Source: Deltaproteobacteria bacterium (lineage in GTDB: Bacteria > Myxococcota > Myxococcia > Myxococcales > SZAS-1). From it: a stretch of DNA of 64,000 bases. The stretch lies in NCBI GenBank assembly GCA_018266075.1, contig JAFEBB010000012.1:62001-126000 (forward strand), in the 5' to 3' direction. A program made the translations under genes and the position numbers. Numbering within the stretch: position 1 is the stretch's first letter; every line of letters starts with the position of its first letter. This document shows, in pieces, positions 44,421-57,626 of the stretch. The notes under the pieces are model-generated. The model ran no database searches, was not told the origin of the DNA, and was given only the letters and a program-made list of their open reading frames with translations.

Positions 44421-44517
44421 ACACCCGCAACGCCGCGAGGCCTGTCGATCCGCCGGGGCGTGCGCACCCTTGATGGGGGCCCGTTCGTTCGAGCGTGGGC
44501 ATCGAGGTCAGGCGCGG

Positions 44518-45933
44518 ATGCTGGAGCGGCCCAAGCGCGAGCAGCAGACCAGGCGTTGGATCCTGGGCGCTTTCCTCGCCGCGATCGTGGCGACCTTCCT
44601 GGCCACGAACGCGGTCGCCGTGCTCGGGATGAGGCGGTTGCAGCAGGGCAACCGCCTCATCGTCGAGGACGCGCTCAAGAGCATCGAGCTCGTCTCCCGC
44701 GTGGCCCTCGACATCGACCGGGCGCGGCTCTTCGTCGACGACCACATCCTGGAGAAGGACCGCTCCAAGATGCTGGATGACGAGCGGCGGCTGGCCGACG
44801 TGAACGCGGACTATGCCGCCACCGCGCGCGCGTACGAGCCCATCGCCCACTTCGCCGGCGAGCACGAGGCCTGGGAGCGACTTCAAGACGAGGTGACGAA
44901 GCTCCAGGCGCCGCTGGGGGTCGTGGTCGAGCGCTCGCGTCAGAACGACGATCAGGGCGCGTTCATCGGCATGGACGCGCTCAACGACCGGTTCGACGCC
45001 ATCGACCGCGACGTCGGCACGCTCATCGCCATCAACCGCGACGAGGCCCAGCGCCAGGTGGTGGAGGTGACGGCGCGGCAGCGCACGGAGCAGCTCTACC
45101 TGGCGCTCACCACGCTCCTGGGCCTCTGCGTCTCGGTGCTGCTCGTGACCCGCGTGAGCCGGCTCATCTCCCGGCGCGAGTCGGAGATCTGGAAGCTCGC
45201 CGAGGCCCTCGAGGAGCGAAACCGCGAGCTCGACTCGTTCGCCGGCCGGGTGGCGCACGACCTGCGCGGGCCGCTCACCGCAGTGAGCCTGGCGTCGGCG
45301 CGGCTCGCCGAGCAGGCGCGGGAGGATGGCGCGGCGGTGATCCTCAAGCGCGGCGTCTCGCGCATGGAGCTGCTCATCAACGACCTGCTCATGCTCTCGC
45401 GCATCGGCGGCGAGGTGCGCGACAACGTCTGCGAGCTCGACGCGGTGGCGGAGGCCGTGGTCGAAGAGCAGGCGCCCGCGCTCGTGGCCCAGGGTGGCGC
45501 GCTCCGCACCGCGCTCGCGCCCGCGTGGGTGCGCTGCACCGAGGGGCTCTTGCGACAGGTGCTCTGGAACCTCGTGGACAACGCCGTGAAGTATCGGCGC
45601 CCGGACGTGCCGCCCGAGGTCGCGCTGGAGGGCCGCGTGGTGGGGCGGGTCTACGAGCTGCGCGTGGTGGACAACGGCATGGGCATGAGCCCGGAGGACG
45701 CGCGCCGCGCCTTCGAGCCGTTCTTCCGCGCCGAGCGCAGCCGCGAGCTGGTGGGCACCGGCCTCGGGCTGGCCATCGTGAAGCGCGTGGTGGAGGCCCA
45801 CGGCGGCGAGGTGACGCTTGAGTCCAAGCTGGGCGTGGGATCGGCGTTCGTCATCCGCTTGCGATTGGCCAACACCGGGCCAAGGCCGGAAGCACCCGAG
45901 CCGGCGCCGCGGCCCGTGTCGCACGACGCCTAA
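44518..45933 (+). CDS. Membrane sensor histidine kinase
   Basis: A 471-residue kinase. A first helix (WILGAFLAAIVATFLATNA) precedes a helical periplasmic sensor (SIELVSRVALDIDRARLFVD), then a second helix (LALTTLLGLCVSVLLVTRV). H box AHDLRGPLTA with His near residue 247, N box NLVDNAVKYR, G1 VDNGMGMS and G2 GTGLGLAIVK are present. ATG 44518 is chosen; the frame is open from 44470. It ends on CTAA shared with the convergent alpha-2-macroglobulin operon. It may sense envelope state together with that operon; this rests on position only. Confidence 0.9.
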   Translation: MLERPKREQQTRRWILGAFLAAIVATFLATNAVAVLGMRRLQQGNRLIVEDALKSIELVSRVALDIDRARLFVDDHILEKDRSKMLDDERRLADVNADYAATARAYEPIAHFAGEHEAWERLQDEVTKLQAPLGVVVERSRQNDDQGAFIGMDALNDRFDAIDRDVGTLIAINRDEAQRQVVEVTARQRTEQLYLALTTLLGLCVSVLLVTRVSRLISRRESEIWKLAEALEERNRELDSFAGRVAHDLRGPLTAVSLASARLAEQAREDGAAVILKRGVSRMELLINDLLMLSRIGGEVRDNVCELDAVAEAVVEEQAPALVAQGGALRTALAPAWVRCTEGLLRQVLWNLVDNAVKYRRPDVPPEVALEGRVVGRVYELRVVDNGMGMSPEDARRAFEPFFRAERSRELVGTGLGLAIVKRVVEAHGGEVTLESKLGVGSAFVIRLRLANTGPRPEAPEPAPRPVSHDA

Positions 45934-48137
45934 CGATCAGCTCCATAGGCGCTCTGGAGCAGCGCGCGGTGATCGAGCGGGCCGCGCTTGGCGGCCTCGA
46001 GGTCCAGGCCCTCGCCGTGGCCGCGGCCGTGGCCGTGGAAGCGCACCTCGCTGCCCACCAGCTCCGCTGCGTCGGGACACGCGGGCAGGTGCAGCGGGTT
46101 GCGCAGCCGCTCGCAGGGGAGCTCGGCGCGATCCTCGAAGACGGCGTCGCCTTCGGCGCTGCGCACCGTGAAGTGCACACGCTCGCTCGAGAAGCCCAGC
46201 GTGAGCGGCGTGGCGCCCAACGCCTGGGCCACCTTCGGCAGCGCGCGGACCTCGCTCCACGGCTCGTCGCCGCCTTGCGAGAACGTGAGCCAGCCTGCGC
46301 TGGAGAGCGCGTCGTCGTTGAGCGCTGCGGCGTCGCCGGGCTCGGGCCGAAGCGTGCCGCGGAAGGCCTGGCAGTGGGTGGTGTCGCAGAGCGGCCGGCC
46401 AGGATGGCGGCTCGCGGCGGCGTTGTGCGCCACCGCGCGGGCGAGGGCGGCGCGCGGCTCACCGGCGAGCTGGGAATCTTCCGCAGCGAGCACGCCAGCC
46501 ACGTAGAGCCCGAGCCGCGTGCCGAAGATGAAGCTCGAGCCCTCGCGCGCGCGGCGCTGGCGCTCGGTCGGCGGCGGCGCGCCTTCGACCGGCACGTAGG
46601 CGGGCGGCGGGCTCCAGCGGAAGCTGCCGGCGTAGGGGCGGCCGTCCTTGGGTCCACCGGGAAAGCTCAGCATCCACGGCGCGCCGAGGCAGAGCGCTTC
46701 GCCGTCGCGCGTGAGCGCTTCCAGTTGCGTCGCCGCGCCAGCGAGACGTGGGTCGTCCTTCGTTGCCAACACGGAAATCCCCGGGCAGCGCGCCTCCACC
46801 TGCTCCGGCGGCACCAGCCCGAGCACCTGCACTTCGGCGTGGGAGAGCTCGTGCTGGCTGCGCAGCGGCTCGAGCACGTCGGCGAGCTCACCGGCGAAGC
46901 TGCGCGGCTGGCGACCCTTGCGCGCAATGACCACCACCACGTCCTGATCGATCGCGACGATGAAGCCGAGCTCGGCGCGCGAGTCGGCGTCGCGGACGGT
47001 GCCCGTCTTGAGCGCGACGCCCCGCAGCCTCGGCGACGCGGGCAGGCCCGAGAGCGTCCCGCGCTCGGCGTTGTGGCGAAGGATGTCGACGACGCCCGGA
47101 CTCGACGCGGCCAGCACGCGATACGCCTGGGCCAGCGCGAGCGGCGTGAGCTTCAAGGTCGGTCGAAGTCCGATGGCCTCGCTTCCGTCGGCCGGCAGCC
47201 GCGACAGCCCGAGCTTCTGCAGGATCGGTCCATACGCGCCGAGCTTGGGCATGTCGGGATCGCGCGCGGCCCAGTCGAGGAAGTAGCCATTGCACGAGCG
47301 GAGCAGGGCGGTCGGCAGATCCATCGTCCTCGGCGCGTCGTCGCCGCACGACCACTCCTCGCGCTTGGCGTCGACGGGCAGCACGGGCGCGTTCGCGAAC
47401 GCCGCCGCCGCGAGGAACGGCTTCAACGTCGAGCCGAAGGGCAGGGGCACGTTCGCGTCGCCCTGGAGCTGCAGGACCTCACCCGAGTGCCGGCTCAAGA
47501 CCACGAGCGCATCACCTTCGTTGAGCGGAATCGCGGCGAGCTCGTCGACGGTGAGCGGAATCCAGCGCGCGCCATCGGCGCATCGCCGCAGACGAACCGC
47601 GAGCACCCGGGGCAGGCCGTGATCCATCGGCGCGTTCGCGAGCAGCCGCGCGAGCGCGCTTCGTGCCGCGCGGTTGTCGAGCGAGCGCGACGACGCGAGC
47701 TGCCGCTTCGCCGCGCCCATCGACAAATACGCGCCGTCGTTCCAAGCGGCCAGCTCGCCGCTCTGCGACAGCGCGAAGCTCTCGTGAAAGAGCGCGTCGT
47801 CGCTCGCGGCGGGACACGCGGCCCAGAGCAGTTGATGCGCGAGCTCGTGTCGAAGCGCGACCACCATCTGCGTCGTGAGCGTCCCGTCGTGCGACGACCG
47901 AAGTTGGATGACGCCGATTCGGCTTGCCCCTGCGCGGTCCGGCGCGAGGTCTACGCCGCGCTCGATGCGAAGTCGCGGCGGCTTGGGCTGCGTTCCGGTG
48001 ACCGCGCTCCACGTCTCCGCGAGATCTCGCCAGCCCGCGTTGGCCTCGCGCGCGAGGGGCGCCGCAGGCTCGAGCCCGGGCGCGAGCTCGATCGACGGAG
48101 CGGCCGCGATGGCCAGCGCGAGCACCAGCGGCGACAT
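45930..48137 (-). CDS. DUF2300-type secreted protein with peptidase-, transpeptidase- and SpoIID-like parts
   Basis: A 735-residue secreted protein (signal MSPLVLALAIAAAPS), last of the operon; its ATG directly abuts the macroglobulin TAG. Three signatures are read. Residues 90-130: HELAH at 97-101 with HESFALSQSGE after it, like gluzincin metallopeptidases. Residues 230-410: Ser236-x-x-Lys239 (GSTLKPF), Ser281-Cys-Asn283 and Lys377-Thr-Gly (LKTGT), the triad of penicillin-binding transpeptidases. Residues 540-735: SpoIID-like CDTTHCQAF at 584-592 and a GHGRGHGEG end motif. In E. coli the equivalent gene is yfaQ (DUF2300), about 550 residues as I recall, so the N-terminal 190 look added. Substrates unproven; cell-wall work is likely. 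Confidence 0.8.
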   Translation of the reverse strand: MSPLVLALAIAAAPSIELAPGLEPAAPLAREANAGWRDLAETWSAVTGTQPKPPRLRIERGVDLAPDRAGASRIGVIQLRSSHDGTLTTQMVVALRHELAHQLLWAACPAASDDALFHESFALSQSGELAAWNDGAYLSMGAAKRQLASSRSLDNRAARSALARLLANAPMDHGLPRVLAVRLRRCADGARWIPLTVDELAAIPLNEGDALVVLSRHSGEVLQLQGDANVPLPFGSTLKPFLAAAAFANAPVLPVDAKREEWSCGDDAPRTMDLPTALLRSCNGYFLDWAARDPDMPKLGAYGPILQKLGLSRLPADGSEAIGLRPTLKLTPLALAQAYRVLAASSPGVVDILRHNAERGTLSGLPASPRLRGVALKTGTVRDADSRAELGFIVAIDQDVVVVIARKGRQPRSFAGELADVLEPLRSQHELSHAEVQVLGLVPPEQVEARCPGISVLATKDDPRLAGAATQLEALTRDGEALCLGAPWMLSFPGGPKDGRPYAGSFRWSPPPAYVPVEGAPPPTERQRRAREGSSFIFGTRLGLYVAGVLAAEDSQLAGEPRAALARAVAHNAAASRHPGRPLCDTTHCQAFRGTLRPEPGDAAALNDDALSSAGWLTFSQGGDEPWSEVRALPKVAQALGATPLTLGFSSERVHFTVRSAEGDAVFEDRAELPCERLRNPLHLPACPDAAELVGSEVRFHGHGRGHGEGLDLEAAKRGPLDHRALLQSAYGADR

Positions 48138-51100
48138 CTACTGCGCCGCGCTCGGGGCGATGGTGAGCGTCGCCGCGGCGGTGCGGCCGTGCACCGCCTG
48201 AGCGTACATGTCCTGCACGGTCGCGGGCGGCGCGTTGAAGGTGCCGGGGAACTGCGCGCGCATGACGTAGCCGATGTGCCGCGGCGTGTCGCTCCACCAC
48301 GTGGGCTCTTCGAAGAAGAACGTGGCGTGCTCCGGCGAGAGCGAGCGCCGCTTGAGCGCCTCGTGCGCGAGCGGCAGGTTCATGGGCGGTCCGCGATAGG
48401 TCTTGTCATCGATGAGCGGCGTGAAGCCCGCGGGCACCGGATCGTCGACCACGTAGTACGCCGAGCGGAACGACTTCGCGGCGTCGCCGTCGTGCGCGTT
48501 CAACGTCAGCTCCACGTACACGTCCTCGCCCTGGGCAATCGAGTCGCCGGCCTTGATCGGCGCGAGCGCGCCATTGCGCAGCGCGAAGTAGGTGCGCTCG
48601 AGCGACATGCCGTTTGCGTCTGCGGTCACCGACGCGAGCGGCGTGCGCACCCGCGCCTTGATCGACGCGACGCCTTCGAAGTTTCCAACATGGACATGCG
48701 TCACCGTGGGCGCGAGCTTGCCCGCGAGCCCGAGCCCGCGCGGCTCCAGCTCGACCGCCGTGCCCGCGGCATCGGCAGTGACCGGCGGCATGGCCTTGAG
48801 CTCCTTCGCGTCGCGCTCGATGAGCCAGAGGCTGTGCAGGATCGCCGTCGAGCGATCGAACGTGGACAGGTCGCGGCCATTGGCGAGCAGTTGCACGATG
48901 CGCGCGCGGGCCTGGGCCACATCGAGCGAGCCGTACGACGCCGCGTGCGTGAGGATGGCGGTCATGCCGATGTCGCGCAGCGGGTAGCTCCAGAAGAAGT
49001 CCGCGTGCGGCGTGTAGACGGCGTTGGAGAGCAGCGCCCGCTGCGCTTCGCCCACGAGCGTTGCCACCTTGGCCTTGTAGTCGGGCTCGTTGGCGACGCC
49101 GCTCTCTTCGGCCGCGAGCACCGCCATCGCGAGCGCGTAGGTGTCGCCGGGCTGCAGCTTGTCGACCAGCGCGCGGGCCCGCGGCGCCTCCCTCGCGCCA
49201 TTGAGCCGCGCGAGCACGTACGCGCGCGTGGGCTCGAGCGAGGGCGGCACGTCCTGCTTCGCGAGCCACTCGGTCGACTCGCGGATGCGCACGTCTTCGC
49301 GTGGGACGATGCCCGCCTCGACGGCGTAGCTCAGCCCATCGAGCGCGATCATGGTCAGCGCGGGATCCGGCTGCGAGTAGCCGTTGAACCAGGTGAAGCC
49401 GCCGCCCTTAACCTCCAGGTTAAGAATTCGCTGGACCCCTTGGGCGGCGCGGCTCTGCGCCTCGGCAAGCAGCGCGCGGCTCTGCGGGTCGAGTTGCGCG
49501 AGCGCGCCCGACTTCTCGAGCGTGCGGTACAGCGCGATGTTCGGGACGGTGCTCGACGTCAGCTGCTCCAGGCAGCCATATGGATACTCGAGCAGGTCTT
49601 CGACATTGGTCAGCGCGACCTCGACCGTCGTCGGCTGCAGCGTGAGCTCGCTCGACATCACCACGGCGCCCGGCGGCAGCTTGAGATCCAGATCGCCGCC
49701 CTTCCAGGCCACGGCGCTCACCGTCTCTTCGATCGTCGCGGGCCGCACGGGCAGGTGCTTCACGTCGCGCAGCGGCTCCTTGCCCTGCAAGAGGAACGAG
49801 ACGTCCGCTTTGCCGTCGCTGCCGGCCTTGAGCTCGAAGGGAAAGACCTTCTCCGAGCCGCTCGTGAGCGAGACGTCCGCGACGGCTGCGTTGATCTGCG
49901 CCGCGCCCGCACCCGACACGTTGAGCTTGTAGCTCACGTTGCCCTGGTTCACCGCCACGCGCAGGCTGCCGGTCGCAGCGTCGCCCGCGCGGAGGAACTG
50001 GGGCAGCGAGGCGACGAGATTTACCGCGCCGCGGCTCGCGAACTCGCCCGTGCCCTCGCCGAAGCGGCCCGACGCGTCGGCGGCGACAGCGGTCACCGTC
50101 CACAGCGTCTGATTGGAGGGCAGGGTGAAGGTGATGCGCGCGTGGCCATCGGCGTCGGTGCGCACGTCGGGATCCCAGAACGCGGTGTCGCGCTCCTTCT
50201 CGTTGGGCTTGTGCGTGGGCGGCTTGATGGCCGCGAACTCGGTGTGCGGCAGCAGCCCGAGCTTGCGCGCGAGGACCTCACCGTAGCCGTAGCCCTGAAA
50301 CTCCGCGCTCTGGAAGGTGGCGACGTTGTTGCGGCTGAGCGGATAGAAGAAGTCGACGATGCCCGGGCGGAACTCGCTCTGGATCGCGTACACGGCCTTG
50401 TCCACGACGCCCACCGACACAGCCGCTTGCACGCCGCGTCCGCGCGAGTCGGTGACGGTGAGATCGATCGACTGCTCGCCGAGCGGCGTGGCCTCGGCGC
50501 GCATCGGCTGCACGAGGACGTTGAGCGTGCGTGTGCGCGGCACGATTCGGAACGACGTGGTCCGCTCTTCCCAGCGGCCGCTGCTCGTCGGGTACGCGAT
50601 CGACGCGTAGACAGCGCTGCCGAAGCGCTCTTCGATCGGGAATCGCTGCACGAGCGTGGTGCCGCTCACGTTCACGAGTTGCGTGGAGTAGATGCCGCTG
50701 CCGGAGAGCGTGATCCACACCGGGCCCTCGTTGCGGCCGTCGGCACCCCAGCTCTGCGGAAAGAGCGCCGCGAGCTCTGCGGTCTGGCCAGGTTCGAGCG
50801 CGCCGCCGAGTGCCTGCAATGTGAGATTTGCCACGCGCGCCACGGCCTCGCCCTTCTCGCCGAGCACGAGCGCGCTCTCTTCGCCGGTCCACGGGTGGCC
50901 GTTCTTGTCGGTGAGCGTGACGCGAGCGATGAGCGAGCCGACGTTCGTCGTTGGCAGCTTGCCGCGCCAGATGCCCTGGTCATCGGTGGTGAAGGTCTCG
51001 CTGCTGAGCGTGCGCTCGTGCTCGTCGGCGTCGCGCAGCACGAGGTCGAGCTTGCCCGCGATGCTCGGCGAGGCCTTGCCGGACAGCGTGGTCGAGCGGA

Positions 51101-52832
51101 TCGAGAGCTGCGCGTCGGAGCCCTGCTTGAGCACCTTCGCGCTCGGGACGATCGCGCCGAGCACCTCGGTCGGCGAGAGGAAGAGCGTGCGCGCGACGTT
51201 GGCGAAGGTGCCCTGGTCGTCACGCGCGCGGACGGTGACCGTGTACTTCCACGCGCGCCGCTCGTCGCCGGGCTTGAGCGCGGGCACGTCGATCTTGATG
51301 TCCGCCTCGCCGTTGTCGTCGAGCTTGGCCGCGCTCTGCCACGGGTCTTCGCCGTTCGTGCCGCGCGCCTCGAGCGAGGAGAAGAGCCGCTCGGGCGCGG
51401 ACAGGCCACCTTCCTTCGACGCCTCGGTGCCGTACGTCACGTTGCTGCCCTTGGCGCCGAGCCCGGAGTCATCGACCCACGCCGGCGCGTCGAGCAGCGA
51501 GCGATAGAGGAAGTACTCGTACGCGGTGTTCTTGGCCGCGCCGCCGGCGTAGCGCCGCCCGCGGACGTGCAGGGAGATGCTCCCGCCGGGCTGCACCGTC
51601 TCCTGATCGCCCACCAGCTCCACATAGAACGTGGGCTTCACGTACTCCTGCACGCGCAGCTCGGCGTTCTCGTGCCGGCCATCGAGCGTAGCGTCGAGTC
51701 GGAGCACGCCGGTGTCGAGGTCCTTGGGCACGTCGAGCGTGCCGTGGAAGCAACCGAACTCATCGACGCTCGCCTTGGTTGTAACTGTTCGGTTATCTGC
51801 GGTGAGGAGGTCGACGCTCACGCTGCGATTCTTCGGCGTGAACAAGCGCGCGAGGAACGAGTCCGGCTGGCGCACCACGCCTCGGAAGCCGACCTTGTCG
51901 CCGGGGCGATAGATGGGCCGGTCCGCGTAGATGAACGCGTCGGGCACGATCGCGAGCGTGGAGTAGAAGTCGGTGTCGACGACGGCGAGGTCGTTGTTCG
52001 CGCGCGCGGTGAGGAGCACGCGCGGCTCGTTGGTCTTGAGGTGCAGCTCGCCGTGCGCGTCGGTGGCGCCGCTCGGGCCCTTCGCCGCGCCCAGGTACAT
52101 CTGCACCTGCGCGCCGCTCACGGGCTTCATGTCCGGGCCGGCGACGCGGACCAGGATCTCGCCGTCGGACTGCTTGGCCTGCACCTTCAAGTCGGTCACG
52201 GAGAGCACGACCTGGCCCTCGACCTTGCCCTGCACGACCTGCAGCACGTACAGGCCCGCGGGCAGCGGCGCGAGGTTCACGCGGCGCTCCTGGTAGCCGC
52301 CCTCGCCGCCGAAGAACGCGGTGAACCCGGGGACGTTGAAGTCCTTCACATCGCCGCCAAGGTCGAGGTTGAGCCACTCGCGGTGGATGAGCTTCATGCC
52401 CTCGGGCAGGTTCACGAGCTTCTCGGGGCCCTCCTCGAGCTTGGACACGGGCTTCGACTCCGCGCTCGGCGTGCGCTTGGGGAAGCCGCCAATCGACGTG
52501 CGCCACTCGGCGCCGAGCGCGTTCATCAGGAACGTGCCCGGCTCGCGGATGGCGTTCACGCCCTTGGCCGCGTAGCGACCCGGGTTGGCGATGGTGGTCG
52601 GCTGCTCGTAGGCGCGGCGCAGGTTGCTCTGCGCGAGGATGAACGGCTCGAGCGGATCCGGCTGGAGCACGCGCAGCTCCACCGGCTCGCGGCCCTCGAA
52701 GGCCACGTCGACGGCCGCCGACTCCTGCGTGCCATAGCTGCGCGGCACGGTGATGTAGAGCGGCTTGGCGAAGGCAGAAGCGCTTGCCCATGCAACGATT
52801 GCGAACGCAACGATTCGAGTCGCGATCTTCAT
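48138..52832 (-). CDS. Bacterial alpha-2-macroglobulin with CLEQ thioester
   Basis: A 1564-residue periplasmic protein with a signal peptide (MKIATRIVAFAIVAWASASAFA) and GGGAGGG before ATG 52832. It has the macroglobulin layout: MG domains with FIYADRPIYRPGDKVGFRG near residue 300, then FWDPDVRTDADGHARITFTLP, then the thioester domain. Cys1087-Leu-Glu-Gln1090 (YPYGCLEQLTS) gives a reactive thioester, followed by alpha-alpha toroid repeats (GYSQPDPALTMIALDGLSYA). Eukaryotic and bacterial relatives trap proteases that cleave a bait region. The clusters of this type (yfaS) are distinct from yfhM-pbpC. Two TAACC-N4-GGTTA dyads lie in it. Confidence 0.95.
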   Translation of the reverse strand: MKIATRIVAFAIVAWASASAFAKPLYITVPRSYGTQESAAVDVAFEGREPVELRVLQPDPLEPFILAQSNLRRAYEQPTTIANPGRYAAKGVNAIREPGTFLMNALGAEWRTSIGGFPKRTPSAESKPVSKLEEGPEKLVNLPEGMKLIHREWLNLDLGGDVKDFNVPGFTAFFGGEGGYQERRVNLAPLPAGLYVLQVVQGKVEGQVVLSVTDLKVQAKQSDGEILVRVAGPDMKPVSGAQVQMYLGAAKGPSGATDAHGELHLKTNEPRVLLTARANNDLAVVDTDFYSTLAIVPDAFIYADRPIYRPGDKVGFRGVVRQPDSFLARLFTPKNRSVSVDLLTADNRTVTTKASVDEFGCFHGTLDVPKDLDTGVLRLDATLDGRHENAELRVQEYVKPTFYVELVGDQETVQPGGSISLHVRGRRYAGGAAKNTAYEYFLYRSLLDAPAWVDDSGLGAKGSNVTYGTEASKEGGLSAPERLFSSLEARGTNGEDPWQSAAKLDDNGEADIKIDVPALKPGDERRAWKYTVTVRARDDQGTFANVARTLFLSPTEVLGAIVPSAKVLKQGSDAQLSIRSTTLSGKASPSIAGKLDLVLRDADEHERTLSSETFTTDDQGIWRGKLPTTNVGSLIARVTLTDKNGHPWTGEESALVLGEKGEAVARVANLTLQALGGALEPGQTAELAALFPQSWGADGRNEGPVWITLSGSGIYSTQLVNVSGTTLVQRFPIEERFGSAVYASIAYPTSSGRWEERTTSFRIVPRTRTLNVLVQPMRAEATPLGEQSIDLTVTDSRGRGVQAAVSVGVVDKAVYAIQSEFRPGIVDFFYPLSRNNVATFQSAEFQGYGYGEVLARKLGLLPHTEFAAIKPPTHKPNEKERDTAFWDPDVRTDADGHARITFTLPSNQTLWTVTAVAADASGRFGEGTGEFASRGAVNLVASLPQFLRAGDAATGSLRVAVNQGNVSYKLNVSGAGAAQINAAVADVSLTSGSEKVFPFELKAGSDGKADVSFLLQGKEPLRDVKHLPVRPATIEETVSAVAWKGGDLDLKLPPGAVVMSSELTLQPTTVEVALTNVEDLLEYPYGCLEQLTSSTVPNIALYRTLEKSGALAQLDPQSRALLAEAQSRAAQGVQRILNLEVKGGGFTWFNGYSQPDPALTMIALDGLSYAVEAGIVPREDVRIRESTEWLAKQDVPPSLEPTRAYVLARLNGAREAPRARALVDKLQPGDTYALAMAVLAAEESGVANEPDYKAKVATLVGEAQRALLSNAVYTPHADFFWSYPLRDIGMTAILTHAASYGSLDVAQARARIVQLLANGRDLSTFDRSTAILHSLWLIERDAKELKAMPPVTADAAGTAVELEPRGLGLAGKLAPTVTHVHVGNFEGVASIKARVRTPLASVTADANGMSLERTYFALRNGALAPIKAGDSIAQGEDVYVELTLNAHDGDAAKSFRSAYYVVDDPVPAGFTPLIDDKTYRGPPMNLPLAHEALKRRSLSPEHATFFFEEPTWWSDTPRHIGYVMRAQFPGTFNAPPATVQDMYAQAVHGRTAAATLTIAPSAAQ
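49409..49422. repeat. TAACC-N4-GGTTA dyad, copy 4 (exact)
   Basis: TAACCTCCAGGTTA lies in the macroglobulin gene. On the coding strand: CTT AAC CTG GAG GTT AAG. Confidence 0.55.
51782..51795. repeat. TAACC-N4-GGTTA dyad, copy 5 (one mismatch)
   Basis: TAACTGTTCGGTTA lies in the macroglobulin gene. On the coding strand: GAT AAC CGA ACA GTT ACA, several rare codons. Confidence 0.5.
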
Positions 52833-54415
52833 GAGTGGAACCCTCCCGCGACGAGCGCGTTGCCCTGCGCTGTGCCGGTCAATCCGAACGTCGGCAGCTC
52901 CTCGAGCTTCTGGCGCGCGGCGTCGATCTCCTTGGGCACCGCGGGCGCGCGGCCGGCGGCTTGCGACTCGGCGTTCCACGCGTCGAGCGTGACGCCCGAG
53001 AGCAGCGCGCCGAGCTGAATCGAAAGTCCGACTGACTGCGGCTGGCGCAGGCCGGCGACCACCGGCGCCGCGGAATTGGCCAGCGCGGGCTGCTTGCCGT
53101 CGCAGGTGCGCTGGATGCGATCGAGCAGCGCCCCGGAGGATGCGTAAACCAATTGGTTACAAATCGTCCCGGTGCGCATGGTGTTGTTGCCGCTGAAGGC
53201 CTGCTTGAGCGACTCGGCGTCTTCCTTCTTCGACCAGAGCAGCGCGACGTCCGTGTTCGCCTTCGCATCGCCGTGCGGCACCCAGACGATGGCCACCTGG
53301 CGCGTCACCGTGGGCGCGTTCGACTTGCCGGCGAAGAAGGTCTTCAGCGTCTCCGGGTCGAGCGTCTTGGGGAGCTTGAGCTGCGCGGTGAGCAGCACCG
53401 GCGCGTCGACGGGGATCGCCTTCAGCAGATCGTCCGAGAGCGCGGCCACGTCCACGCGGCCTGGCGTCGCGAGCTCGCCGGCGATGCCGCGCGGCACGAG
53501 CTTGTCGCCCTCCACGCCGAACGCGAGCCGCGGCTGCGGGCCAAGCCCCATCAGGCTGGTGAGCACCACCGCGTCGTGGCCCAGTCCCGGTGTGGCGATG
53601 GTGAGCTCGAGGTCCGCGCCGGGCGTGCGCGTCGCCGCGGGGATCTTGGCGCAGAGGCCCTGGAGCACGGCCGTGGGGTTCTTCGCGATGGCGAGCCCGC
53701 TCGGCCCGAGCGACGCGTACATCGCCTGGTTCGCGAGCACCCAGCGCTGGATCTCGAAGTGGCGCGTGACCGGCGGCGCGCCGCCGTCGGTGGGCGCGGG
53801 CGCGTCACCCGGGCACGCCTCGGCGAGCTGCACGCCGTGGCCCGCGGCCTTGGTCAGCGCCTCGAACGCGGCCTGCGCGCCGGCGCCCGGCTGCGGCACG
53901 AGGACGACCGGCGTGCTGGTGGCCTGGCTGCCGCTGAACCACACGATGCGCGAGGGCGCGTCGAGCAGCTGGCTGGCGACGTAGTCGATGACCTGGCCCT
54001 TGAACGACGCGGCCACGTCCTCGCCCTTGGTACCCCAGAAGCCGGCCCACGGCCCCACGAAGCCCTGACCGAGCGGCTGCTGGAGCGCATCCTGGAGCCA
54101 CGCGTTCTGCTTGATGGCGCCGTGGAGCTTGGCCGGCTCGTACACATCGACGATGTACGAGGGCACGCTCGGCGGCGCGGTGACGTCGATCTCCAGCTTC
54201 TGCGGCGCGGCGGGGATCGCGTTCGCTGCGGGCGTCTGCACGCTGGTGCCGTTTGCGCCTGGCGCAGGCGGGTGGTAGCCCGCCGGCGGCGTGAGCTTCG
54301 TGATCGGCGAGACGTCCTTCGGCCCTTCGACGTCCTTCAGCGCGTAGATGAGCGGCACCGCGAGCACCGCGATCACCACCAGCGCGATGGCCGTCTTGCG
54401 ATCAGTGGGGTTCAT
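52829..54415 (-). CDS. DUF2138-like membrane-anchored protein
   Basis: A 528-residue protein with one N-terminal helix (KTAIALVVIAVLAVPLIYAL), a Pro/Ala-rich spacer, then a large periplasmic part (YIVDVYEPAKLHGAIKQNAW, LDAPSRIVWFSGSQATSTPV). By order and length it corresponds to E. coli yfaA (DUF2138, about 560 residues); the sequence match is my recollection, not a search. Three Cys pairs may bond (AEACPGD, GLCAKI, ICNQLV). Its TGA overlaps the macroglobulin ATG (ATGA), so it is co-made and probably anchors the complex. A dyad of the TAACC family lies in codons for CNQLVY. Confidence 0.7.
   Translation of the reverse strand: MNPTDRKTAIALVVIAVLAVPLIYALKDVEGPKDVSPITKLTPPAGYHPPAPGANGTSVQTPAANAIPAAPQKLEIDVTAPPSVPSYIVDVYEPAKLHGAIKQNAWLQDALQQPLGQGFVGPWAGFWGTKGEDVAASFKGQVIDYVASQLLDAPSRIVWFSGSQATSTPVVLVPQPGAGAQAAFEALTKAAGHGVQLAEACPGDAPAPTDGGAPPVTRHFEIQRWVLANQAMYASLGPSGLAIAKNPTAVLQGLCAKIPAATRTPGADLELTIATPGLGHDAVVLTSLMGLGPQPRLAFGVEGDKLVPRGIAGELATPGRVDVAALSDDLLKAIPVDAPVLLTAQLKLPKTLDPETLKTFFAGKSNAPTVTRQVAIVWVPHGDAKANTDVALLWSKKEDAESLKQAFSGNNTMRTGTICNQLVYASSGALLDRIQRTCDGKQPALANSAAPVVAGLRQPQSVGLSIQLGALLSGVTLDAWNAESQAAGRAPAVPKEIDAARQKLEELPTFGLTGTAQGNALVAGGFHS
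53146..53159. repeat. TAACC-N4-GGTTA dyad, copy 6 (one mismatch)
   Basis: AAACCAATTGGTTA lies in the DUF2138-like gene. On the coding strand: TGT AAC CAA TTG GTT TAC. Its centre AACCAATTGGTT is a perfect 12-bp palindrome. Confidence 0.5.
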
Positions 54416-54974
54416 GCGCCCACTCCTTGAGTCGATAGAAGCCGAGGAAGGCCGGGTTCTCCGGCACCGGGCGCCACTCGAGCGGCGCATTCACTGCCAG
54501 TGAAGTCAGGCTGCCGCCGCGCAGCGCCGCGCCGGGCTCGCCCGGGTGGTAGAGCACCATCGCGCCGTGCGCGGGATCGCGGTCGTGCACCACGAGCATG
54601 AGGTGAAAGACCTCGGCGCCCGGCTCGCCCTGGCGAAACGCGACGAGATCGCCGGTCTGCACCTGCGCGCGAGCCTCGGCCCCGCGGCCCAGCAGCGCGA
54701 AGTTGCCGGCGAGCAGGTTCTCCGCGTCGGCGAAGTCGCTCGGCTTGCCGAAGCGATCGCGCCAGAGCGGCGTCGCGCGCGCGGGCTCGAGCTGCTTCCA
54801 CGCCTCGCGATAGACGAAGCGCACGAAGCCCGCGCAGTCGCGCTGCTCGGGCGTCCACGCGGGATCGAAGTGATCCACCTGCGCGAGCGCGTGGGCAGCG
54901 ATGGCCTGTCGCACGAGCGCAGGGTTCGCCGGCGGGGCGCCGAGCGCCAGAAGCAGCAAGGGCAGGGCGCGCAT
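54402..54974 (-). CDS. DUF1175-family protein (YfaT-like)
   Basis: A 190-residue exported protein (signal [15 protein letters not shown]). It matches DUF1175 well: RDCAGFVRFVYREAWKQLEP, TGDLVAFRQGEPGAEVFHLML, MVLYHPGEPGAALRGG and a final WRPVPENPAFLGFYRL. The Cys in RDCAGF followed by the His in VFHLML resembles an NlpC/P60-type Cys-His pair, so a papain-like hydrolase is possible. The next gene starts 14 bases before its end; its own ATG overlaps the DUF2135 stop (TGATG). Confidence 0.85.
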   Translation of the reverse strand: MRALPLLLLALGAPPANPALVRQAIAAHALAQVDHFDPAWTPEQRDCAGFVRFVYREAWKQLEPARATPLWRDRFGKPSDFADAENLLAGNFALLGRGAEARAQVQTGDLVAFRQGEPGAEVFHLMLVVHDRDPAHGAMVLYHPGEPGAALRGGSLTSLAVNAPLEWRPVPENPAFLGFYRLKEWAHEPH

Positions 54975-55876
54975 CAGTCGCCCATCCCGTAATCGCCGAC
55001 GGAGCTCTCGCCCTTCTGCACGGCGGCCGCGGCGTCGTCGAGGTTCTTGGGCCAACCGGCGGTGGGCGCGGGGTCTTGGCTGGGCACGTAGATCTGGCCG
55101 TGCTCGCCGTCGAGGACGTTGACCCACGCGAGCACGCGCGTGGTGCCGCGCGTCGCCAGGGGGATCTGCACGCGCCGCTTCACCTCCTGCGGCGTGCCCT
55201 CGAAGAGCGTGACGTTCAGCGTGGCGAGCGTGTGCGCCTTGTCGCCGCTGGGCCAGTAGTTGGTGGCCACCAGGAACACGCCCTTGGGCGGCGCGCGGTG
55301 GACGTAGAGGTACGGGCCGTACGCCGGCTGGTCGAAGTCACCGCCTTGCTCGTTCAAATAGAAGGTGCCGCCCGACGGGCTCGAGGTGTTGGCCCAGTAC
55401 ACATGATACATTTTGGTTACATCGATGGTGCCATCGGCCTTGGTGCTCGCGTCGGTGGGCTCGTAGATGTGGAGGTCGGTGTAGACGCCGTCGGTGTCGC
55501 TGGTAAGCACGGCCTTCATTCCGACTGGTGGGATCTGCGCGTAGCTGGTGGCCTGGGCGCTGCCGGTGCCGCCCTTGTTGGTGGCGCTCACGGTGACGAC
55601 GTTCTTGCCCGAGGCGGCGGGGAACGCGCGCGAGAACTTCCCGTCGGCGGTGCGCATCAGGTAGCGGTCGCCGTTGATGGACACGACGATGGGATCGACG
55701 GTCTTGTCGCTGCACTCGCCGGCGACAGTGAGCATGCGGCCCACGGTCCAGCCGCCGGGCGGCGAGGTGAGGGTGACGGTGGGCGCCCTCGTGCCCTGGC
55801 CGATGGGCACGCCCACCTGCCTCTCGGTGGGCGGCGGTTGGACCGCCAGCGCGAGCGTGAGCACGACGTGGAGCAC
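54974..55876 (-). CDS. DUF2135 protein with Ig-like domain (YfaP-like)
   Basis: A 300-residue exported protein, first of the operon. Start is GTG 55876 with GGAGG just upstream, giving a compact signal peptide ([13 protein letters not shown]). An Ig-like domain ([30 protein letters not shown]; key start [10 protein letters not shown]) precedes DUF2135: [53 protein letters not shown]2135 is the C-terminal part of E. coli yfaP and of von Willebrand-type partners. In E. coli the order is different, so genes have been shuffled within a conserved set. Confidence 0.85.
55406..55419. repeat. TAACC-N4-GGTTA dyad, weak copy 7
   Basis: ATACATTTTGGTTA lies in the DUF2135 gene; one half matches fully and the other poorly. 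It is an AT-rich patch in GC-rich sequence. Confidence 0.3.
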
Positions 55877-56282: not shown

Positions 56283-57626
56283 ATGCGCAAGCTCATCCTC
56301 CTCACCGCGATGCTCTGTGCCTGCAGCGGCAAGAGCCCCACCACGAGCGACGGCGGTCCCACCGACGGCGGCGCGACCGACGCCGGAGTCGACGCCGGCA
56401 GCTGCGATGGCGCGTGCCCGCAATCGCTGATTCAGCACGTGGTGGTGATCATTCAAGAGAACCATTCTTTTGATTCATACTTTGGAAACTATTGCACCGC
56501 GGCGGCCGGCTCGAACCCGACCTGCACCAGCGGGCCCGGCTGCTGCGAGGCCGCCCCCGCGACCGACCCGAGCGGCTCGGCGCCCGTCGTGCTCGACGAC
56601 ACCCAGAACGCGAGCACCAGCCCCAACCACGAGCAGGACTGCGAGCTCGCCGAGATGAACGACGGCGGCATGGACCACTTCGTCAGCGGCGGCGGCAACG
56701 GGTGCTCCGCGAGGGCGAACTTCGCGGTGGCCAATGCCGCGACCCTGAGCACCGGCTACTGGGCCTGGGCCACGCAAGGCGCCTTGGCCGATCACTGGTT
56801 CCAGTCCCTCGCCGGAGCCAGCGCCTCGAACGACATGTATCTCGCGCGCGCTGGCTACGTGTTCACCGACAACTCGTTCGAGACCCACTCAAAGGGCTCA
56901 ACGTGCGCGAACATCGCTGGAATCGCGCAACAGACCTACTCGGATGCGACCATCGGTGACTTGCTCAGCGACGCCGGCGTGACCTGGGCGTTCTACGCCG
57001 AGGGCTATCAACAAGCCGTGGCGACCGATCCTGCGTGCGAGCCAATCCCTCCGGACTGCCCTGCGCGCCTGCCGCTCTATCCTTGTCTCTATGACCCGAC
57101 GGACGTGCCTTTCGAGTTCTATTCACAATGGCAAGACGATCCGGTCCACATGCGCGACTTCAGCCAGCTCGCGGTCGACCTCGTCGCCGGTACGTTCCCT
57201 TCGGTCGTGTACGTGAAGGGCCTCGGCTACCACACCGAGCATCCCGGCGCCGGCACCACCATCACCGCAGGCGAGCAGTTCGTCCAGAGCGTGCTCGATC
57301 TGGTGAGCAACTCGAGCTACGCCCAGAGCACGCTGGTGATCATCACGCCCGATGAGAGCGGCGGCTACTTCGACCACGTCTCGCCGCCGAGGCCGAACAC
57401 CGCCGACGGCCAGCCTTATGGGCCGCGCATCTTCACCATCGCCTACGGCCCCTTCGCGCGCGCGGGCGGGATCGCCCACGGGCAGTTGGAGCATGCGTCG
57501 ATTGTGAAGTTCATCGAGTGGAACTGGCTTCGCGCCGACGGCCAGCTCGGCTTGCGAGACACCACCGCTCACAACATTGGTGAACTGCTCGATGCCTCGA
57601 AGACCGGCGTGACGGTTCCACAGTAG
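56283..57626 (+). CDS. Phosphoesterase (phospholipase C/acid phosphatase family) lipoprotein
   Basis: A 447-residue lipoprotein (lipobox TAMLCAC, then DGG repeats) of the PF04185 phosphoesterase family, which includes phospholipase C and AcpA. Near the start of the domain IQENHSFDSYFGNY carries the Asn and nucleophile region; the Asp-Glu/His set continues with PDESGGYFDHVSPP and LEHASIVKFIEWNW. Secreted enzymes of this type hydrolyse phosphate esters or phospholipids. The codons for NHSFDSYFGNY are unusually AT-rich (CAT TCT TTT GAT TCA). GGAG precedes the ATG. Confidence 0.9.
   Translation: MRKLILLTAMLCACSGKSPTTSDGGPTDGGATDAGVDAGSCDGACPQSLIQHVVVIIQENHSFDSYFGNYCTAAAGSNPTCTSGPGCCEAAPATDPSGSAPVVLDDTQNASTSPNHEQDCELAEMNDGGMDHFVSGGGNGCSARANFAVANAATLSTGYWAWATQGALADHWFQSLAGASASNDMYLARAGYVFTDNSFETHSKGSTCANIAGIAQQTYSDATIGDLLSDAGVTWAFYAEGYQQAVATDPACEPIPPDCPARLPLYPCLYDPTDVPFEFYSQWQDDPVHMRDFSQLAVDLVAGTFPSVVYVKGLGYHTEHPGAGTTITAGEQFVQSVLDLVSNSSYAQSTLVIITPDESGGYFDHVSPPRPNTADGQPYGPRIFTIAYGPFARAGGIAHGQLEHASIVKFIEWNWLRADGQLGLRDTTAHNIGELLDASKTGVTVPQ

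Follow-up and report, generated by a model that had tools for sequence, protein, structure and literature searches.

The minus strand of the window (the whole 64,000-nucleotide stretch of myxobacterial DNA analysed here) carries an alpha-2-macroglobulin gene packed together with four others, which raises the question of what kind of operon this is and what its products might do in the cell envelope. Comparable gene clusters are the mag operon of Pseudomonas and the yfa cluster of E. coli. Both the mechanism of these systems and the reason why MagD protects against effectors that cut the cell wall were stated to be open in the 2025 literature (PMC12663445).

A myxobacterial mag/yfa-type operon

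Five genes run head to tail on the minus strand from 55876 to 45930, each overlapping or abutting the next. Gene 1 (54974..55876, 300 amino acids) begins with GTG at 55876, ends with a stop at 54976-54974 and encodes a DUF2135 protein, the counterpart of MagA/MagF and YfaP. Its stop overlaps the ATG of gene 2 at 54974 in the sequence TGATG; gene 2 (54402..54974, 190 amino acids) encodes an NlpC/P60-like DUF1175 protein that corresponds to MagC and YfaT. The end of gene 2 at 54402 overlaps by 14 bases with gene 3 (52829..54415, 528 amino acids, ATG at 54415), the product of which is a remote homologue of DUF2138/MagB/YfaA. An ATGA joins the end of gene 3 at 52829 to the start of gene 4 at 52832 (48138..52832, 1564 amino acids), which encodes the alpha-2-macroglobulin, the counterpart of MagD and YfaS. 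The TAG of gene 4 (48140-48138) is followed without a gap by the ATG at 48137 of gene 5 (45930..48137, 735 amino acids), which encodes a protein with HExxH, transpeptidase and SpoIID elements, the counterpart of DUF2300/YfaQ/MagE. None of the five reading frames contains an internal stop, and GC3 lies between 0.88 and 0.93 in all of them. The unit is bounded on the gene 5 side by a convergent histidine-kinase gene (44470-45933) and on the gene 1 side by a divergent phosphoesterase gene (56283-57626). The 3' ends of gene 5 and the histidine-kinase gene overlap by four bases (45930-45933 of the window). The original prediction, made from the letters of this DNA, had placed the genes and described their coupling correctly throughout.

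The macroglobulin gene adjoins genes for DUF1175 and DUF2135, as is characteristic of mag/yfa operons, and the five-gene unit is a conserved operon of this type in its myxobacterial version. By inspection, the N-termini of all five products resemble signal peptides or membrane anchors, and the site at which they act is therefore likely to be the periplasm.

Conservation of the gene set and of gene order

Among 195 Myxococcota genomes, DUF1175 was found in 87, the window type of gene 3 in 79 and gene 5 in 84. All 79 genomes with gene 3 also possess DUF1175 and gene 5, in keeping with the co-occurrence that the original prediction called for, while the eight genomes that have DUF1175 but not gene 3 comprise seven with only the canonical type of operon described below and one with a fragmentary contig. 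All five genes are present in 26 of the window-type loci that were read (n=29); the other three lie at a contig edge, with gene 5 absent or reduced to a fragment. A single order, namely DUF2135, DUF1175, DUF2138-like, A2M and DUF2300-like, was observed in 29/29 of these loci, whereas the canonical order elsewhere is DUF2138-like, DUF1175, macroglobulin, DUF2135 and transpeptidase/SpoIID. The original prediction was of a conserved set in a variable order. This is so in comparison with E. coli and between lineages, but order is fixed within the lineage of the window, and shuffling among myxobacterial loci of the window type was consequently rejected.

DUF1175 is missing from more than half of the Myxococcota genomes in the sample. 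The window genome belongs to the same taxonomic order as Archangium. The system is present in most of the genomes sampled from the family that contains Archangium (f7), and absent from the listed genomes of two families of the same taxonomic order (f2 and f3). When genomes were scanned with a DUF1175 alignment, 560 relatives were returned, 80 of which were kept; these belong to Acidobacteriota, Deinococcota, Spirochaetota, Thermotogae, KSB1, Pseudomonas, Massilia and others.

The Pseudomonas operon (magABCDEF) has the order DUF2135, DUF2138, DUF1175, macroglobulin, DUF2300 and DUF2135. Mapping the published PAO1 deletion primers (PMC5764988) onto the loci of P. citronellolis and P. oryzagri established which mag gene is which: magE corresponds to the DUF2300 gene and magF to the second gene for DUF2135. 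The families of the Pseudomonas operon are common to the window, the order of which is closest to magABCDE, differing by an exchange of B and C and by having no second DUF2135 gene (magF). The E. coli genes yfaA-yfaT-yfaS-yfaQ-yfaP belong to the same five families and form a single cluster on the minus strand, ordered 2138-1175-A2M-2300-2135 as opposed to 2135-1175-2138L-A2M-2300L in the window. Canonical operons in other Myxococcota, Acidobacteriota and Geothrix share DUF2138-like, DUF1175, CXEQ-bearing A2M, DUF2135, transpeptidase, SpoIID and HExxH components with the window, but differ in gene order and in the HExxH module, which in other lineages is C-terminal, fused to SpoIID, or encoded by a separate gene. 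In Deinococcota, in contrast to the five genes of the window, we encountered only a three-gene core of DUF1175, a CXEQ macroglobulin and a small protein with HExxH that carries a hypothetical-protein annotation, located on plasmids or chromosomes (L159:7899-13712 and L160:7809-13793 on Meiothermus and Deinococcus plasmids; also L083, L085 and L086).

The macroglobulin retains a thioester motif

The gene 4 product has a signal peptide and contains MG2, bMG10, TED, A2M and BRD domains, all above the Pfam cut-off. The thioester motif GCLEQ is located at residues 1086-1090 (49563..49577, minus strand); neither this motif nor the enzyme motifs of gene 5 described below featured in the original prediction. 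CXEQ is present in all 27 complete macroglobulins of the window type, in 62 of the 63 other non-proteobacterial mag-type copies and in three of five proteobacterial ones, amounting to 92/95 of the complete mag-type macroglobulins examined. The three that lack it are those of E. coli, Citrobacter and the second operon that the window genome itself carries on contig C20; yfaS of E. coli MG1655 is a pseudogene. No markedly hypervariable bait-like stretch was seen in 17 aligned window-type macroglobulins.

The “Type II” macroglobulins (MagD, YfaS) have been described as lacking CXEQ (PMC5764988), and gene 4 does not conform to this description. It possesses the CXEQ of the Type I (YfhM-like) proteins, but has neither the adjacent pbpC nor the grouping with YfhM by which that class is also recognised. 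In the tree the window-type macroglobulins form one clade (branch value 100) and the mag-type proteins stand apart from Type I (99), although long branches make it uncertain where within the mag-type proteins the window clade belongs. The yfhM-pbpC pair has CXEQ and the coupling to a transpeptidase in common with the window system, but no DUF1175, DUF2135 or DUF2138, and PBP1C carries a glycan-polymerising transglycosylase domain where the gene 5 product has a SpoIID domain instead. The MagD-type proteins of P. citronellolis, P. oryzagri and Massilia have CXEQ too, in the form YPYGCVEQ (genes at L156:10219-15102, L157:9844-15120 and L154:9796-15111), unlike P. aeruginosa MagD as reported (PMC5764988). 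The lack of a thioester is not a trait of the whole mag system.

Several genomes, including that of the window, also have a canonical mag operon elsewhere. In the window genome it lies on contig C20 (42000-60000, L039) in the order DUF2138-like, DUF1175, macroglobulin and DUF2135, with a downstream open reading frame of 1043 amino acids that has no Pfam match; of the 63 mag-type macroglobulins that are neither proteobacterial nor of the window type, the one encoded here is the only one without CXEQ. Two more macroglobulins of this genome, on contigs C83 and C54 (L037, L038), carry CXEQ, and the gene on C54 is directly followed by one for a PBP1C-like protein (Transgly and Transpeptidase). Counting those of the window, C20, C83 and C54, the genome therefore encodes four macroglobulins, of both classes.

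The DUF2135, DUF1175 and DUF2138-like partners

The gene 1 product, which has a signal-peptide-like N-terminus, matches DUF2135 (PF09906, 4.3e-5, above the cut-off) and a Glucodextran_B/Ig-like domain (PF09136, 3.5e-8), and is retrieved at 2.4e-6 with E. coli YfaP as phmmer query. The gene 2 product matches DUF1175 (PF06672, 3.7e-26), with a sub-threshold NLPC_P60 hit, and aligns with the MagC structure 7bk8 at 2.1e-7. DUF1175 has been classed as inactive (PMC10318531); work cited in that paper describes DUF1175/MagC as an NlpC/P60-like protein that interacts with (binds) peptidoglycan. Despite the inactive classification the Cys and His residues are conserved: Cys47 (in the motif DCAG, codon at 54834..54836, minus strand) and two His columns are invariant among nine aligned homologues.

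The gene 3 product has one N-terminal membrane helix (about residues 6-27) and gave no match, to DUF2138 or otherwise, in Pfam, NCBIfam and PADLOC scans. Its counterpart in the canonical loci retrieves DUF2138 proteins of Pseudomonas and Massilia at about 1e-6. When the gene 3 family was compared by hhalign with a profile of canonical and DUF2138 sequences, the score was 63.6 (E=4.1e-7, 345 colinear columns), against a maximum of 20.6 for 60 column-shuffled profiles and 14.9 for the reversed profile. A direct hhalign comparison of window gene 3 with DUF2138 alone (six DUF2138 rows) was not significant (0.18), and the link therefore rests on the intermediate canonical family. Profile-profile homology through this intermediate, together with operon position, supports gene 3 as a remote DUF2138/MagB-type partner. 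An AlphaFold model of window gene 3 made with a distant-homologue alignment had a pLDDT of 38.5, too low to use, and that of canonical gene 3 (pLDDT 68.7) gave no credible match in the PDB (full-length TM-scores about 0.1).

The five families originally named are supported, though by different means. Pfam confirms DUF2135, DUF1175 and the macroglobulin, whereas the DUF2138-like and DUF2300-like assignments have no Pfam match and stand on profile comparison. The products of the genes ending at 54974 and 52829 had been singled out as those for which family matches should be sought; the first has its Pfam match (DUF2135), and the second has none in Pfam but is placed by its profile (hhalign E=4e-7).

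The fifth protein combines wall-enzyme and metallopeptidase motifs

Pfam gives no DUF2300 match for gene 5, and its Transpeptidase (0.002) and SpoIID (0.028) hits are both sub-threshold; a sequence search of the PDB returned no match. Proteins from related loci have strong Pfam matches to Transpeptidase (1.6e-26) and SpoIID (3e-24), and YfaQ itself exceeds the Pfam SpoIID cut-off (7.2e-6). A gene 5 profile of 27 rows aligns by hhalign with the canonical transpeptidase-SpoIID proteins at 3.5e-27, the latter align with YfaQ and its relatives at 1.5e-11 over both domains, and iterative searches connect YfaQ and window gene 5 in both directions. On these comparisons the gene 5 product is the DUF2300/YfaQ/MagE-type partner, and the designation “DUF2300-like” holds at the level of profile-profile homology only.

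The motifs of this protein, all on the minus strand, were followed through 26 aligned copies. Towards the N-terminus lies a gluzincin-like zinc motif, HELAH (residues 97-101, 47835..47849), in which H97, E98 and H101 are invariant, as is Glu119 downstream (47781-47783). The transpeptidase motifs comprise SxxK (STLK, residues 236-239, 47421..47432), with invariant S and K; SxN (SCN, 281-283, 47289..47297), also invariant; and KTG (377-379, 47001..47009), which is KTG in 25 copies and KSG in one. The SpoIID core consists of Glu553 and CDTTHCQ (584-590; together 46368..46481), invariant throughout, and is followed by GxGHGxG (GRGHGEG, 704-710, 46008..46028), present in 25/25 copies that reach it. 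Across the alignment the catalytic and signature columns are invariant, apart from the x positions, which vary, the KSG already mentioned and a single gap. The protein is a putative penicillin-binding transpeptidase, as it carries SxxK, SxN and KTG, and a putative SpoIID lytic transglycosylase on account of its Glu, CTTHCQ and GHG, although the Pfam score alone is sub-threshold. HExxH with a downstream Glu points to a gluzincin metallopeptidase at the motif level only, with no match to a Pfam family.

The corresponding proteins of E. coli (YfaQ), Pseudomonas, Massilia and Citrobacter keep SxxK and a C-terminal HExxH but read SCG for SCN, with KTG, CTTHCQ and GHGxG lost, whereas window gene 5 keeps all of these motifs. 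From their sequences YfaQ and the Pseudomonas MagE-type proteins appear to be decayed relatives of the gene 5 product. HExxH is at the N-terminus of window gene 5 but at the C-terminus of the Pseudomonas MagE-type proteins. Comparison of the N-terminal with the C-terminal module gave a profile score of 48.6 (shuffle maximum 22.6), which fell to a background value of 22.4 once HELAH was masked; common descent of the two modules was dropped, and the likeness is taken as one of motif. The Pseudomonas MagE-type protein begins with a Sec-like signal, which does not fit the cytoplasmic location suggested in PMC5764988.

That YfaQ combines a transpeptidase with a SpoIID domain was already published in 2025, and yfaQ deletion was reported to give wider cells, resembling mepS and mepK (peptidoglycan hydrolase) mutants (PMC12282094). 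That paper makes no mention of a macroglobulin, nor do the passages concerned mention an HExxH motif; new here are the HExxH element, the tie to the macroglobulin family as a whole and the finding that the motifs are intact outside Proteobacteria.

A variation in the arrangement of gene 5 is observed in Geothrix and relatives (L132-L153) and in Spirochaetota (L129-L130), whereby it is split into a transpeptidase gene and a SpoIID gene; the Geothrix SpoIID protein has an HExxH motif at its N-terminus. Two Myxococcota genomes (G141 and G142) match the SpoIID half of gene 5 only and have no DUF1175 match, possibly representing a relict or a separate use of the domain.

A possible guard of the cell wall

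We think it marginally probable that the operon encodes an exported envelope guard, anchored in the inner membrane, in which a macroglobulin trap is coupled to peptidoglycan remodelling in defence of the wall; its activity, assembly and defensive role we infer. Gene 3, with its single N-terminal helix and likeness to MagB, would anchor the complex or the macroglobulin in the inner membrane, and the macroglobulin would act as periplasmic bait and trap, such that cleavage by an intruding protease exposes the thioester for covalent bonding to the attacker. The MagC-like DUF1175 protein would keep the complex on peptidoglycan, while the gene 5 product may repair or remodel the wall on the spot, SpoIID cutting glycan strands and the transpeptidase re-linking peptides. 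The least certain step is that of the HExxH module, which would most simply be a peptidase, acting either in maturation of the macroglobulin or in the removal of cleaved material. Deletion of magE left P. aeruginosa MagD unprocessed (PMC5764988), a hint, to be taken with caution, that would fit a maturation peptidase. On this reading the proteobacterial counterparts of gene 5 have given up some of their active sites, and the thioester has gone from some macroglobulins.

P. aeruginosa MagD protects against VgrG3 and Tae1, type VI (T6SS) effectors that cut peptidoglycan (PMC12663445), a finding that would be accounted for by a trap linked to enzymes that remodel the wall; an equivalent trap-and-repair idea was put forward earlier for Type I macroglobulins with PBP1C (PMC5764988). 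Counted against this model are the inactive classification of DUF1175, the lack of a markedly hypervariable bait-like stretch and the background score of the masked HExxH module, as well as the make-up of the published complex. The original prediction had argued for one physical complex. This is plausible by analogy, as MagA, MagB, MagD and MagF of P. aeruginosa purify together, but no stable complex of MagD with either MagC or MagE could be demonstrated (PMC5764988).

The same literature can be read in favour of a pure periplasmic protease trap, in which the other four proteins fold, anchor or stabilise the macroglobulin and the wall domains of gene 5 serve for localisation. MagD, anchored by MagB, traps a protease (TEV), loss of MagB or MagE lowers MagD (PMC5764988), and CXEQ is retained. 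We nevertheless regard this as unlikely, given that localisation alone needs no near-invariant SxxK, SxN, KTG, SpoIID Glu and HExxH, and that what MagD is known to protect against is wall-cutting effectors and not proteases (PMC12663445). Somewhat less likely still is a module for wall growth or morphogenesis, with the gene 5 product shaping the sacculus and the macroglobulin acting as scaffold or sensor of envelope stress; the wider cells of the yfaQ mutant and its resemblance to peptidoglycan hydrolase mutants (PMC12282094), together with the fixed gene set in the Archangium family, are consistent with it, whereas a thioester in nearly all copies, a patchy occurrence across phyla, with many Myxococcota lacking the system, and the protection that MagD affords against attackers (PMC12663445) are not.

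It was also suggested originally that the operon guards a predator against its own secreted proteases. Its occurrence in most sampled genomes of the Archangium family would suit this role, but we consider it highly improbable: the thioester-bearing system also occurs in Acidobacteriota, Deinococcota, Spirochaetota and Pseudomonas, more than half of the Myxococcota sampled are without DUF1175, two families of the same order (f2 and f3) lack the system in the listed genomes, the macroglobulin is predicted to be periplasmic while secreted proteases act outside, and the phenotype tested in P. aeruginosa is resistance to type VI effectors that attack peptidoglycan (PMC12663445).

With regard to origin, the envelope-guard model can be extended, more tentatively and at somewhat below even chances, to an ancestral mag system that was a self-contained trap-and-repair machine, comprising a covalent macroglobulin with an active transpeptidase, SpoIID lytic transglycosylase and metallopeptidase, from which the Type II systems of E. 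coli and P. aeruginosa have partly decayed. Partial decay would explain why the partners look like proteins of unknown function, and the ancestral machine would likewise account for the protection by MagD against wall-cutting effectors.

The association of both bacterial macroglobulin classes with a penicillin-binding transpeptidase at the genetic level suggests a common theme. In the myxobacterial version the motifs are intact where those of the model organisms have decayed, and thioester capture, transpeptidation, glycan cleavage and metallopeptidase activity are thus each open to assay and mutation. Since the window system keeps a thioester together with apparently intact wall active sites, the proposed link between macroglobulin trap and wall repair becomes testable.
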